DNA of 25,704 bases from a virus: IMG/VR virus record IMGVR_UViG_3300033143_001684, positions 1 through 25,704 of that record; one strand, written 5' to 3'. Positions 2,688 through 25,252 of the stretch are shown in pieces (within the stretch, counting starts at the first letter, position 1; the number at the start of each line of letters is the position of its first letter). Position numbers and translations under genes: made by a program. The notes beneath the pieces are model-generated. The model was not told the DNA's origin and ran no database searches. It saw nothing but the letters and a program-made list of their open reading frames with translations.

Positions 2688-3977
2688 ATGGCTTCAAGTG
2701 TAGGCTTTAAGCTTGCATCATCGATCTTGGATGACGGTGACGTTAAGACTTTTTCGACGTTGGATATAAATCCAGATACGTTGAGACCACAGGAGCAAGA
2801 TGTTTTCACTTTCATTCAGGAGTTTCTTTATGAACATAAATCGCTTCCGCAAAAGTCAACGGTACTTCAGGAACTATCCTTGGAATCACTTCCAATTGTG
2901 CAGGAGGTTCCTAGCTATTACGCGAAGCAGATACGGAACAGGTTCATCAGTGATCGGATCAAGAAGGGGTATGCAGACAGCAAGGAATTTCTGACCAAGG
3001 GAGCGGATGGGGTTCAGGTTGAGGCAGGGATAGTTTGCTTGACTGAGACCTTGATGGACATCCACAGGGCAACCAATCAAAAGGACATGGTTGACTTCAA
3101 GGAGATAAAGAAATTTATTGAGAAGGCATACAAGGAAAAGAAAATTATGGGAATGGATGGAACCGTTCTCATCGGCTACCCAACTGTTGACATCCTCAGT
3201 GGGGGAATGGTGGGGGGTGATTTAGTCTCGATTGTGGGGAGACCTGCAATGGGTAAAACATGGAGCACATTATTCATTGCCCACAACGCATGGTATAGAC
3301 AACACAAAGTTGTACTATATATACCACTAGAAATGACCAACTTGGCTATCAGTCAACGATTGGTTTCCATGCATACCAAGCACAACCTCACTCAACTCAA
3401 GAAGGCTCAGCTATCCACCAAGGCACACAAAGACATGTTGGGGAAGCTGCAACTGCTGACGGATTTTAAAGAATCGTTTTGGATTGCGGGGGGAACCACA
3501 ACATCAACGGTTGAAGATATTTGGAAAATTGCTATGCAAGTTCAACCTGATTTTATTTTGGTTGATGGTGCTTACCTGCTGAGTCACGAGAATCCACGGA
3601 TGGGAAAATATGAGAAGGTTGCTGACAATGCAAGGAAGCTGAAGCAGATGCTTGCAATGGATTTCAATATCCCGGTAGTGGCATCGTGGCAGTTCAACCG
3701 AAACGCGACAAAGAAAATGGAGAAGGATGGGAAAGCAGGATTGGAGGACATCGGCTACACGGATGAGATTGGTCAACTGTCTTCTGTGGTGTTGGGTCTG
3801 ATGCAAGAGGAATCGATTGAGACAATCATTACACGGGAGGTTGAGATTCTGAAAGGCAGGGATGGGGAGATAGGAAAGTTCAATACCAATTGGGATTTCT
3901 ACAACATGGATTTCAGTGAGCTTGAGAAGCCAGAGAAGAAAGTTGAGCAACCAGAAGAAGAAATTGTGGTGGACTGA
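2688..3977 (+). CDS. DnaB-family replicative DNA helicase
   Basis: Hexameric 5'-3' replicative helicase of the DnaB/gp41 superfamily 4, 429 aa, close to the usual length. An N-terminal helical domain (about 1-130) precedes a RecA-like motor. Visible motifs are Walker A GRPAMGKT (184-191), motif H1a-like YIPLEM just downstream, Walker B FILVDG (289-294, D293) and VASWQFNR, the DnaB motif-3 glutamine region (canonically SQLNR). The acidic C-terminus EKPEKKVEQPEEEIVVD may be a protein-interaction tail. Start at ATG 2688 has AGGGG seven nt upstream. It lies 10 nt after the possible loader gene. It should unwind the fork and cooperate with the primase at 4924. Identification is confident. Confidence 0.93.
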   Translation: MASSVGFKLASSILDDGDVKTFSTLDINPDTLRPQEQDVFTFIQEFLYEHKSLPQKSTVLQELSLESLPIVQEVPSYYAKQIRNRFISDRIKKGYADSKEFLTKGADGVQVEAGIVCLTETLMDIHRATNQKDMVDFKEIKKFIEKAYKEKKIMGMDGTVLIGYPTVDILSGGMVGGDLVSIVGRPAMGKTWSTLFIAHNAWYRQHKVVLYIPLEMTNLAISQRLVSMHTKHNLTQLKKAQLSTKAHKDMLGKLQLLTDFKESFWIAGGTTTSTVEDIWKIAMQVQPDFILVDGAYLLSHENPRMGKYEKVADNARKLKQMLAMDFNIPVVASWQFNRNATKKMEKDGKAGLEDIGYTDEIGQLSSVVLGLMQEESIETIITREVEILKGRDGEIGKFNTNWDFYNMDFSELEKPEKKVEQPEEEIVVD

Positions 3978-4065
3978 TGCTATTTGGTTTGGCTCCCCAT
4001 ATACCTTTCAAACGCAAATCTCACATAGGGGGGGTGGATAGGATCAGTTTTTTTCAATAATTTGC
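3978..4065. other. Intergenic stretch after helicase gene
   Basis: It contains a G7 run (4028-4034) and a T7-8 run near 4048-4054. I could not draw a stable hairpin directly in front of the T run, so a terminator is not supported. No ORF is credible here. Confidence 0.4.
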
Positions 4066-4094
4066 TTGACAAATATTAACTGGTCAACTAAGCT
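4066..4094 (+). promoter_or_regulatory. Strong promoter, extended class (P1)
   Basis: TTGACA at 4066-4071, 17-bp spacer, TAAGCT at 4089-4094. It shares TTGACAAATA at the left end and TCAACTAAG at the right end with the promoters at 11939 and 25650. TTGAC and GTCAA form an inverted pair spanning the spacer. Transcription would start near 4101, well upstream of the next gene at 4475. Confidence 0.8.
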
Positions 4095-4100
4095 CTTTAT

Positions 4101-4450
4101 ATCGAAACAAGAAAAGGAGAAAGCAAGACGGAAATGGTAACAGTAAGGGGTTGATTGGTAACGGGCTGAAAAGTCGCATGAGTTAGGTAAGCCAATCAGA
4201 ACTAACGAGATTCGGAATATGATTCAGTTAGCTACCCCCAAGAGAAATATTCCTCCCGTTCATGGAAGCAGTAATAAGATTCGGGGTCACTGAGAAGGCG
4301 CAACAATGAGAGGATGCAATGACCACCCCCCCGCATTGGGAAAGACTAGGAAACAATCTAGAAATGCTAGGAGAGACAATGACTGTTCCTGATTCACGGT
4401 TATTTGATCCGCACCAAACAATTCACTAGCCCCTTCATTGGGGCTTTTTT
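4101..4450 (+). ncRNA. Candidate structured noncoding RNA or attenuator leader
   Basis: A strong promoter ends at 4094 and an intrinsic terminator lies at 4428-4450, with no convincing ORF between (an ATG at 4134 gives only six codons). Short complementary pairs suggest structure: TGATTGG 4152-4158 with CCAATCA 4192-4198; CTAAC 4202-4206 with GTTAG at 4227-4231, or alternatively with GTTAG at 4182-4186, which would be mutually exclusive; GGTCA near 4285 with TGACC near 4319; CAATG 4317-4321 with CATTG 4334-4338. ATTCGG is repeated in the segments GAGATTCGG and AAGATTCGG. It could be an independent small RNA or the leader of the operon at 4475. I find no match to tRNA, tmRNA or group I intron cores. 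Confidence 0.5.
4428..4450 (+). terminator. Intrinsic terminator or attenuator
   Basis: Stem AGCCCC / GGGGCT with a 6-nt loop TTCATT, followed by a run of T. It ends 24 nt before the start of the next gene, so it separates promoter P1 from the operon unless it is conditionally read through. Confidence 0.85.
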
Positions 4451-4474
4451 GGTAAACAAAGCGGAGACAGAGAA

Positions 4475-4924
4475 ATGGCAGTAAAATTGAAAACAGGTCT
4501 GAAGAAGACCACCAAAACCAAACTCAAAGCGGAAAGCGGAATTGCTCAAGCAACGAAATTGGTTCCTGATGCATTCGCAATTCAGGGAAAGATGAAAGTC
4601 CTTCAAGCCCAGATGAAAAATCTGACTGATCAATTGACTCCTATCGAAAAGGAAATTCGTAATCTGGTTGACAATGATATTGAAAGCACTGCTTCGGTTG
4701 ATCTGATTAGCGGGACTGATGTTCTGAAAGTTGCGGGACGTTTGCAGACACGTACCATCAAGAGCACTGATGATGTTGTGATTGCATTGGAAGAGTTCGA
4801 AGAAGGACTTGCCCTGAAGCTTGCAAAATTCGGTATCGGTGATCTGGACAAATACTTTAGCCCTGAAGAAATGGATGACCTCTGTGAGATTAAAGAGGGC
4901 AACCGAAGACTCACCTACAAGTAA
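4475..4924 (+). CDS. Unknown protein with lysine-rich tail and coiled coil, 149 aa
   Basis: No family recognised. The N-terminus MAVKLKTGLKK is followed by more Lys/Thr (about 1-20), a tail shared in style with other proteins of this replication block. Residues about 38-65 are a likely coiled coil (KMKVLQAQMKNLTDQLTPIEK). The remainder is alpha/beta with several acidic stretches (EEFEEGL, SPEEMDDL). Start ATG 4475 has GGAGA seven nt upstream in a GGAGACAGAGAAATGGC context repeated before other genes. Its stop overlaps the primase start (TAATG), implying translational coupling and perhaps a role as primase or replisome accessory factor. That role is inferred only from position. Confidence 0.75.
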   Translation: MAVKLKTGLKKTTKTKLKAESGIAQATKLVPDAFAIQGKMKVLQAQMKNLTDQLTPIEKEIRNLVDNDIESTASVDLISGTDVLKVAGRLQTRTIKSTDDVVIALEEFEEGLALKLAKFGIGDLDKYFSPEEMDDLCEIKEGNRRLTYK

Positions 4925-5865
4925 TGAATCAAGATCAGGTGGCAGATTTGCTCTCCGCACTTGGGGGGCAAGTCACAGCCAAAACTTCAAATTGGGTAAC
5001 GTGCAGATGCATCTTTGCACCCTTCACGCATGAGGGTGGGAAAGACAATCACCCATCAAGCGGAATGTCCATCAAGGCAGGAAGCTCAAAATATAATTGC
5101 TTTTCCTGTGGGGAACATGGAACCCCGTATGAAGTTTATAAGAAGCTGAAATTCTGGTACAAGGGGAAGCCTCCCACCAATGTCAATTTGTCGTTAGCAA
5201 TGAAAATTATTGACGGTGATGAGTATGACGAAGACCTTGATTTTCCTGACTACGAAGATGAGATTAATCGTGCTCCCCCGAAACTGATTGCATTTGATGA
5301 ACATTGGTACTCGTGTTTTTCAACTGCCTACAAACATCCATACACCCAAGTCAGGGAAATCTCAAAACAGTTAGCCAAGAAAATTGATATCAGGTTAGAT
5401 TTTGAGAGGTGCAGAATTCTGTTTCCAATTCGGGATTGGGATGGGGTTTTGATGGGGGTGCATGGCAGGACGTTTCTGGATGATGTTGAACCCAGATACT
5501 ACAGCTACCCAAGCAACGGAATCAGGAACCCTTCTGTCTGGATGGGAGAAGACCACGTTGACCTTGATGAGCCTGTGATACTGGTAGAGGGTCAATTTGA
5601 CTACGCAAAAATTCGGGTGCATTACGACAATGTTTTGTCGGGGCAGACAACCCAAGTTCAGCAGGACAAAATAAATCGTCTTGGTGAAGCAACAGAAATT
5701 ATCACGATCTTTGATAATGGTGTGGGAGGTGACAAGGGCAGGGATAGAATCACGAAGCACTTCACCACGATTCCGGTCACGCATTTAAACCCCCCTGAAC
5801 CCTTCGGGGATTTGGGGCAGATGCCTGATGATGCGGTGAGAGAGTTATTGGAATATGTCTCTTGA
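4924..5865 (+). CDS. DNA primase, zinc-binding and Toprim domains
   Basis: DnaG-type primase making RNA primers at the fork, 313 aa, shorter than bacterial DnaG because the C-terminal helicase-binding domain is absent. An N-terminal zinc-binding module has C27, C29, H36 and the pair C59/C62 (CFSCG). The RNA polymerase-like core includes FPIRDWDGVLMGVHGR (167-182). The Toprim signature is VEGQFDYAK (E222) and IFDNGVGGDKGR (D264, D270), the metal-binding residues. The start codon overlaps the preceding stop. A promoter for the SSB gene begins inside its last codons. Assignment is confident from motifs and from its place near helicase and SSB. Confidence 0.9.
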   Translation: MNQDQVADLLSALGGQVTAKTSNWVTCRCIFAPFTHEGGKDNHPSSGMSIKAGSSKYNCFSCGEHGTPYEVYKKLKFWYKGKPPTNVNLSLAMKIIDGDEYDEDLDFPDYEDEINRAPPKLIAFDEHWYSCFSTAYKHPYTQVREISKQLAKKIDIRLDFERCRILFPIRDWDGVLMGVHGRTFLDDVEPRYYSYPSNGIRNPSVWMGEDHVDLDEPVILVEGQFDYAKIRVHYDNVLSGQTTQVQQDKINRLGEATEIITIFDNGVGGDKGRDRITKHFTTIPVTHLNPPEPFGDLGQMPDDAVRELLEYVS

Positions 5866-5890
5866 CAAATAAATTGACTAATGCGAAAAT
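5862..5890 (+). promoter_or_regulatory. Promoter for SSB gene
   Basis: TTGACA 5862-5867, 17-bp spacer, GAAAAT 5885-5890. The left part TTGACAAATAAA matches the extended promoters, but the right TCAACTAAG block is missing and the -10 box is weaker. It overlaps the stop codon of the primase gene. Confidence 0.6.
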
Positions 5891-5894
5891 ACGT

Positions 5895-5910
5895 GTGTCC
5901 ATGAGGACAC
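5895..5910 (+). promoter_or_regulatory. Perfect hairpin at the 5' end of the SSB mRNA
   Basis: GTGTCC-ATGA-GGACAC, a 6-bp perfect stem with a 4-nt loop, placed where the transcript should start and followed by a strong AGGAGG (5925-5930). It may stabilise the message or serve as an RNA operator, as ssDNA-binding proteins of phages such as T4 gp32 are known to control their own translation. Confidence 0.55.
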
Positions 5911-11938: not shown

Positions 11939-11967
11939 TTGACAAATATTTACCCATCAACTAAGAT
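11939..11967 (+). promoter_or_regulatory. Strong promoter, extended class (P2)
   Basis: TTGACA 11939-11944, 17-bp spacer, TAAGAT 11962-11967. Shares TTGACAAATATT and ATCAACTAAG blocks with the promoters at 4066 and 25650. It drives the gene at 12014. Confidence 0.85.
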
Positions 11968-19264: not shown

Positions 19265-19275
19265 GTCTTCAATAA

Positions 19276-19343
19276 TGTGAATTACATCACACCGAAAGTT
19301 CAGCAATTATTTGTCAATGATGTATACTTTAGAGACTGAAACA
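19276..19343 (+). promoter_or_regulatory. Promoter cassette C2 (68-bp exact repeat with C4)
   Basis: Identical over 68 bp to 20219-20286. It holds TGTGA-ATTACA-TCACA (19276-19291), ATTTGTCAATGA (from 19309) and TATACTTTA (from 19323). The TGTGA-N6-TCACA palindrome equals the consensus CRP-cAMP site core. Its centre lies roughly 50 bp from the start site predicted by TATACT. It drives the gene at 19364. Confidence 0.7.
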
Positions 19344-19363
19344 GAAACACACGAGACACTGAC

Positions 19364-19588: not shown

Positions 19589-19601
19589 TCTTAGTATCAA
19601 A
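19584..19601 (-). repeat. Dispersed 18-bp dyad, copy 5 (inverted, supplies stop codon)
   Basis: TTTGATCTTAGTATCAAA, the most symmetric copy (TTTGAT-N6-ATCAAA). Its TGA is the stop codon of the gene ending at 19588, and cassette C3 begins right after it. Confidence 0.8.
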
Positions 19602-19603
19602 AG

Positions 19604-19670
19604 TGTGAACTAGTTACCCCAAATAACTCAGCAATTATTTGTCAATGATGTATACTTTACATACTGAAAC
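19604..19670 (+). promoter_or_regulatory. Promoter cassette C3
   Basis: TGTGA at 19604 with a degenerate partner, then the block CAGCAATTATTTGTCAATGA and TATACTTTA (19629-19659), identical over 31 bp to cassettes C2 and C4. The leader AAACAAACACGAGAAAAG precedes ATG 19691. Confidence 0.65.
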
Positions 19671-19690
19671 AAACAAACACGAGAAAAGAA

Positions 19691-19913: not shown

Positions 19914-20216
19914 ATGAAAGCCACCAAGAAAAACGTAGCAGCAGCAATCCTCAAGAAGCACGGTCACAAGGTCGAGCTTTGTAAGGGTGACGGTTATTAT
20001 CATTTTTCTCCTGCTGAATCTGATTGGGAGCTTGCCAAGGTTGAGCCGATTGCACACGCTCAAGAGACAATGGTTTATAGCATGTGGTTGACTGACTATG
20101 ACGTTGATGGTTGGGTTGAAAATTATGAGTATCTGATTTCTACTGCTGAAATGCCTGATCCAGATCATGACTATGACGCTCCTATTGTTATCAAGGTTGG
20201 AAGCGGTATCTATTAA
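19914..20216 (+). CDS. Small unknown protein, 100 aa
   Basis: Starts MKATKKNVAAAILKKHG and has a DGYYHFSPAESDW segment and an acidic YLISTAEMPDPDHDYD region; the family is unknown to me, though the pattern of a short basic start and aspartate/tyrosine rich core suggests a small alpha/beta fold. Cotranscribed with the gene before it from C3. C4 follows three nt after the stop. Confidence 0.7.
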   Translation: MKATKKNVAAAILKKHGHKVELCKGDGYYHFSPAESDWELAKVEPIAHAQETMVYSMWLTDYDVDGWVENYEYLISTAEMPDPDHDYDAPIVIKVGSGIY

Positions 20217-20218
20217 AC

Positions 20219-20286
20219 TGTGAATTACATCACACCGAAAGTTCAGCAATTATTTGTCAATGATGTATACTTTAGAGACTGAAACA
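20219..20286 (+). promoter_or_regulatory. Promoter cassette C4 (68-bp exact repeat with C2)
   Basis: Contains the exact CRP-like TGTGA-ATTACA-TCACA (20219-20234), ATTTGTCAATGA and TATACTTTA (20244-20274 block). It drives the gene at 20307. Confidence 0.7.
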
Positions 20287-20306
20287 AAACAAACACGAGA
20301 AAACAA

Positions 20307-25142: not shown

Positions 25143-25252
25143 AGCCCCTCCCCACCCGTGGTATATTAACATACATTGACAAATAAAAACGAGACATGCA
25201 TCACAGTATAGGGGGGGCATACGTGATACAATCCGTGGGTGGGTAAGGGGCT
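25143..25252. repeat. Long inverted repeat flanking a 71-bp spacer
   Basis: Left arm AGCCCCTCCCCACCC (from 25143) pairs with right arm GGGTGGGTAAGGGGCT (to 25252): two runs of seven pairs with a small internal loop. The spacer contains TTGACAAATAAAAACG and a G7 run. Confidence 0.75.

Follow-up and report, generated by a model that had tools for sequence, protein, structure and literature searches.

A probable gene for a structured, pseudoknotted non-coding RNA between helicase and primase genes of a phage

Few structured RNAs of phages are known, and some of them form elaborate structures. GOLLD and ROOL are structured RNAs of phages and prophages whose function is unknown; they are large and elaborate and often lie near tRNA islands (PMC12286853). 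ROOL has multiple pseudoknots, and many GOLLD members exceed 800 nt (PMC12286853). The phage sRNAs PreS, VpdS, OOP, and IsrK are short transcripts that influence phage replication, lysogeny, or termination, and several characterized phage sRNAs are about 50-220 nt long and act by base pairing (PMC12197685). Type III toxin-antitoxin systems offer a further comparison, and one of them, ToxIN, is the subject of PMC3475682.

The window (the whole stretch of DNA analyzed here) is a linear virus record of 25.7 kb. Its segment 3978-4474 sits between a gene for a DnaB-like helicase (2688-3977) and an ORF of 149 aa, which is followed by the primase gene. As judged from its sequence, this segment probably contains the gene of a phage non-coding RNA about 350 nt long, structured and pseudoknotted. 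The parts of the locus are listed below, with relatives designated by their contig labels.

4026-4062, + strand: conserved block 5' of the promoter, ATAGGGGGGG...TCArTTTTTTCAATAA, retained by the window, L003, and L125/L126
4066-4094, + strand: class promoter of the RNA, TTGACA (4066-4071), a 17-nt spacer, and TAAGCT (4089-4094), with class copies elsewhere
4101-4451, + strand: structured non-coding RNA of about 350 nt with predicted ends; homologues at 5468-5840 of L003 and 4143-4512 of L125
4428-4445, + strand: intrinsic terminator AGCCCC-TTCATT-GGGGCT, then T6; GCCCC/GGGGC arms unchanged in relatives
4475-4924, + strand: 149-aa ORF, distant counterparts of which adjoin the primase gene in phages without the RNA
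4924-5865, + strand: DNA primase (phrog_47, E 1.6e-33)

The relatives, found by a primase search, are three other IMG/VR contigs (L003, which is 89 kb long, L125, and L126). All three carry the whole unit at the same place, between the DnaB-like helicase gene and the 149-aa ORF that precedes the primase gene, and a DNA search found a single copy of the RNA in each. The RNAs of L125 and L126 are identical, so that the comparisons involve three distinct sequences, two of them close. In five annotated phages whose helicases and primases are homologous (Rhizobium RHph_Y1_11 and RHph_TM16, Stenotrophomonas DLP_3, Rhodobacter RcZahn, and Vibrio V-YDF132), the gap between the helicase gene and the next gene is within about 70 nt, and there is therefore no room for the unit there. 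Full-length searches of 26 more distant phage records with a covariance model of the RNA core (R1) gave no match, and the retrieved relatives had no further ones elsewhere. When viral contigs were scanned loosely for a motif (AAATGCTAG..CTGTTCC), most of the matches listed were unrelated sequence and two were contigs of the clade. An exact search for the block of helix P1 (described below) returned clade members only, and a relaxed P1 pattern returned 46 viral and 13 genome stretches, of which none outside the clade has the other blocks of the RNA as a set; those viewed fall mostly in coding sequence. When the RNA was compared by BLAST with phages and plasmids, the matches listed were mainly to the terminator end of the query. 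At the sensitivity used and in the collections searched, the unit looks specific to one phage lineage, and further members of the RNA may exist.

The RNA resembles GOLLD and ROOL as a putative phage-encoded structured RNA, and it shares pseudoknotting with ROOL, but it differs from them in its length of about 350 nt, its position beside replication genes, the lack of a tRNA in the window, and the lack of an Rfam match. The Rfam search that the initial annotation had proposed placed neither the window nor the L003 RNA in a family: the window gave no match, whether at the gathering threshold or with E allowed up to 10, and L003 gave only sub-threshold, chance-like matches up to E 10. ARAGORN found no tRNA or tmRNA. 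The likeness to PreS, VpdS, OOP, and IsrK is that of short phage transcripts. Several of those sRNAs pair with targets, whereas here no shared pairing target was seen in six phage genes; inspection of their start regions, by eye and with no control, revealed no complementarity to the RNA common to the three phages. The RNA can be placed in neither group and is best filed as a structured phage non-coding RNA.

The unit had been credited with a strong class promoter, and the class itself is borne out, as the joint pattern TTGACA..CAACTAAGCTC occurs at two sites in the window (4066 and 25650) and is absent from all 100 shuffles. The promoter of the RNA in the window consists of TTGACAAATA, the 17-nt spacer, and TAAGCT. 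Because TAAGCT is a poor -10 element, a generic sigma-70 scan of the window made no call for the copy at 4066, and the grade of 'strong' therefore depends on membership of the class. A weaker or variant copy lies at 11939 of the window, and L003 has class promoters of the form TTGACAAATA-N13-TAAGCT at 316 and 13319. In L003 and L125, the -10 element of the promoter that serves the RNA is TATTAT. The predicted start site of the RNA is near 4101.

Other repeats and motifs were also noticed. G7 tracts (ATAGGGGGGG) adjoin TTGACAAATA sites in the window at 4026-4062 and at about 25176-25230, and the first of these is conserved in L003 and L125. Three 88-nt repeats (19269-19356, 19597-19684, and 20212-20299) carry TGTATACTTTA on the + strand and TTGACAAATA on the - strand and are possibly promoters of small genes. 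In L146, positions 4200-4500 hold a sequence like the 5' half of a tRNA and then a long insertion; this may be a tRNA that is interrupted. An operator-like motif, TTGATCTTAGTATCAA / TTTGATACTAAGGTCAA, is repeated in the window at the following sites.

1931, 9763, 11910, 16335, 19585, 22284, 22308, 24315, 25102, and 25548, both orientations: operator-like motif (repeat listing)

The clean terminator described at 4428 was confirmed as a stem-loop followed by T6, with a local hairpin of -12.1 kcal/mol and, on folding, a pair probability of about 1 in the window transcript. It lies about 30 nt 5' of the start codon of the 149-aa ORF, and no class promoter was recognized between the two. Expression of the ORF and primase would thus need read-through, upstream transcription, or an unrecognized promoter. 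The initial annotation had proposed that a primase-SSB-RecA operon may depend on read-through at 4428; this could matter for the 149-aa ORF and primase, but it is not obviously relevant to SSB and RecA since SSB has its own class promoter at 5862. The 149-aa ORF has no Pfam or NCBIfam family match above cut-off, and its AlphaFold model (pLDDT 51) is too poor for a fold search. The name 'Gam-like' was considered for this ORF, was unsupported in family searches, and was dropped.

Further downstream (5862-5908 of the window), this class promoter of SSB overlaps the end of the primase gene and is followed by a hairpin, GTGTCC-atga-GGACAC, 5' of SSB. The corresponding hairpin in L003 and L125 is TTGTCC/GGACAA, with one compensatory end pair. 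In L003 (5812-5862), the 5' arm of the terminator (CCCCTT) is predicted to pair, in the read-through RNA, with the AAGGGG ribosome-binding region of the next gene, a pairing that is not predicted in the window.

The covariance check took the form of a helix scan and pair counts on the three sequences, and its outcome upholds a conserved structure. All possible helices were scanned blindly on a MAFFT alignment made without structure, with 200 column shuffles. The top helix, 4214-4220/4247-4253 (P2), scored 19 against a shuffle maximum of 12, with six of its seven pairs changed on both sides. It was followed by 4147-4151/4234-4238 (score 11) and by P1 (4152-4159/4191-4198) and S1 (4202-4205/4228-4231) with scores of 10 each; the 95th percentile of the shuffle maxima is 10, so scores of 10-11 are each borderline alone. 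The helices of the RNA are as follows.

4152-4198, + strand: helix P1, comprising P1a (4152-4158/4192-4198) and P1b (4159-4162/4182-4185); 11 pairs, 100% of cells paired
4202-4231, + strand: pseudoknot stem S1, 4202-4206 (CTAAC) with 4227-4231 (GTTAG); four of five pairs double-changed, one broken cell
4213-4254, + strand: pseudoknot stem P2, 4213-4220 with 4247-4254; six of eight pairs changed on both sides
4147-4151 with 4234-4238, + strand: possible helix between GGGGT and ACCCC in the third loop of the pseudoknot; three double changes, borderline
4101-4107 with about 4405-4410, + strand: tentative closing helix P0, ATCgAAA with TTTGAT; GTTAAG/CTTGAC in L003/L125
4254-4286, + strand: tentative helix P3, TCCCG (4254-4258) with CGGGG (4282-4286), drawn by eye; GTTAC/GTAAC core in L003/L125
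4369-4390, + strand: likely hairpin P6, AGGAGAG (4369-4375) with CTGTTCCT (4383-4390); 3' strand invariant

When the four-helix structure (P1a, P1b, S1, and P2) was counted on alignment A7 of the three sequences, 97% of cells were paired and 12 of 24 pairs had changed on both sides and yet remained paired, a result reached in 0 of 500 shuffles. With the partner slid by 1-3 columns, at most one pair had changes on both sides. Because the three sequences used for the counting also guided the choice of the structure, these counts lean towards it; the blind scan is the more independent test. P1 has an invariant 3' bulge, GGTAAG (4186-4191), and one double change each in P1a and P1b. S1 and P2 cross to form an H-type pseudoknot, which is compatible with P1 and whose loops measure 6, 6, and 15 nt. 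Covariation is shown by computation for P1, S1, and P2.

The best-supported core is the bulged hairpin P1 followed by the S1/P2 pseudoknot, and P6, P3, and P0 are less certain. P0 has two double changes, and in the window alone it is at chance (29% of shuffles). P3 and P5 were read by eye and are less sure; P3 is placed at equal distances from P2 and a GGCGC block, and its position 4254 is also the outermost, mismatched column of P2. The minimum-energy folds of the three RNAs all include P6, whose pair probability is 0.03 in the longer window transcript versus 0.4-0.9 in L003/L125. The three RNAs show no excess folding stability (z of +1.9, 0.1, and 0.0).

The position among replication genes, with the conserved G7 tract and T-rich block just upstream, could also suit an element acting as DNA (a replication origin or protein-binding repeats, the conserved blocks being DNA sites). 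This is quite improbable. The crossing of the covarying stems S1 and P2 fits RNA rather than DNA palindromes, as do the one-sided bulge and the promoter-to-terminator layout, and GC skew has no turn at the locus.

Conservation of the RNA exceeds that of neutral sites in the neighboring genes. L003 and L125 are 90.7% identical in the RNA compared with 64.7% at 300 fourfold sites of three flanking genes. The RNA of the window is 57-58% identical to those of L003 and L125 compared with 42-45% at fourfold sites, with blocks of up to 18/20 identical positions. For the window and L003 the values are 57% overall and 45% at fourfold sites, and at an identity of only 57% the alignment of much of the 3' half deserves little confidence.

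Constraint of this kind could in principle reflect one or more small protein genes, the region encoding a short peptide in place of a functional RNA. The description of the unit as 350 nt with no convincing ORF was sound: the + strand of 3978-4474 of the window, including the roughly 330 nt from promoter to terminator, has no ORF of at least 50 aa, and a small-ORF listing contains none common to all three distinct sequences. The conserved small ORF that would have spoken for coding was thus looked for in the three sequences, and none was found. Short ORFs do occur in each sequence, such as one with an ATG-CTA start at 4364 whose position is common to L003 and L125, and a 38-aa frame is common to L003 and L125. 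However, the 38-aa frame is interrupted by a stop in the window, and the frame from 4364 runs through the conserved CTGTTCCT..TTCACGG block in one phase in the window and in another in L003. The small-ORF starts lack a strong ribosome-binding site at proper spacing, and substitutions in the region track base pairing, which runs counter to a peptide. A coding function is accordingly highly improbable.

The initial annotation also drew two helices competing for CTAAC (4202-4206), an arrangement taken as that of an attenuator. Both can be drawn, but only the partner at 4227-4231 (in S1) is conserved. The other, GTTAG at 4183-4187, aligns in the relatives with CCGCA and CCGAT, which cannot pair with the aligned bases, and its TTA falls inside helix P1b. 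Complements to the 3' arm of the terminator that the three sequences share are no more frequent than expected by chance (52% of shuffles contain one). With the competing pairing unconserved and these complements at chance level, the proposal of an attenuated leader is not supported.

A broader version of this idea is that the RNA is a cis-acting structured leader (an attenuator or a ligand or protein sensor) that sets read-through into the 149-aa ORF and primase. Attenuators and riboswitch leaders are likewise structured RNAs that end in a terminator before a gene, and the short distance from terminator to start codon, the lack of a class promoter between them, and the closeness of the helicase, ORF, and primase genes in related phages are in keeping with such a role. 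In contrast to those leaders, this RNA has no conserved antiterminator beyond chance. In addition to the failings of the competing CTAAC pairings and the 3'-arm complements, an 8-bp complement to the 5' arm of the terminator (4147-4154) is present only in the window and is lost in L003/L125, and the near-certain formation of the terminator in the window transcript also argues against the leader. A leader is rather unlikely, though a cis role by another route is conceivable given the lack of a recognized promoter between the terminator and the next gene.

Type III toxin-antitoxin loci of the ToxI type are ordered as promoter, pseudoknotted RNA, terminator, and small ORF. The same order of parts occurs here, as it would if the RNA were the antitoxin of such a pair. 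Unlike ToxI-type antitoxins, the RNA region has no repeated antitoxin unit among the 20 largest repeat families listed for the window, and the downstream ORF is not a recognized toxin (lacking a family match above cut-off, it shows no ToxN/CptN/TenpN-like toxin) and has counterparts in phages without the RNA. A type III antitoxin is barely conceivable.

The reading of the locus as a gene for a structured phage non-coding RNA fits the conserved promoter, terminator, and sequence blocks, the covarying helices, and the lack of a conserved ORF and of an Rfam family. The RNA would be transcribed from its own class promoter, starting near the predicted site at 4101, and the transcript would end at the intrinsic terminator (4428-4450), probably giving a discrete RNA molecule. 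Once folded, it may act in trans in the replication phase, with a protein of the phage or host as its most likely binding partner. Since the unit lies inside a helicase-ORF-primase cluster that is contiguous in other phages and no promoter was recognized 3' of the terminator, partial read-through probably accounts for expression of the 149-aa ORF and primase, which the unit would then also lower. As a more tentative and doubtful proposal, it may represent a new family of pseudoknotted RNAs that acts in trans in DNA replication (for example by protein capture) and was inserted into the helicase-primase cluster of one lineage.

The RNA is compact and lies among core replication genes, and covariation supports its pseudoknot. 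Direct tests can draw on a defined sequence, on predicted ends, and on specific pairs, and phages without the RNA offer a comparison for its arrival in the replication cluster.
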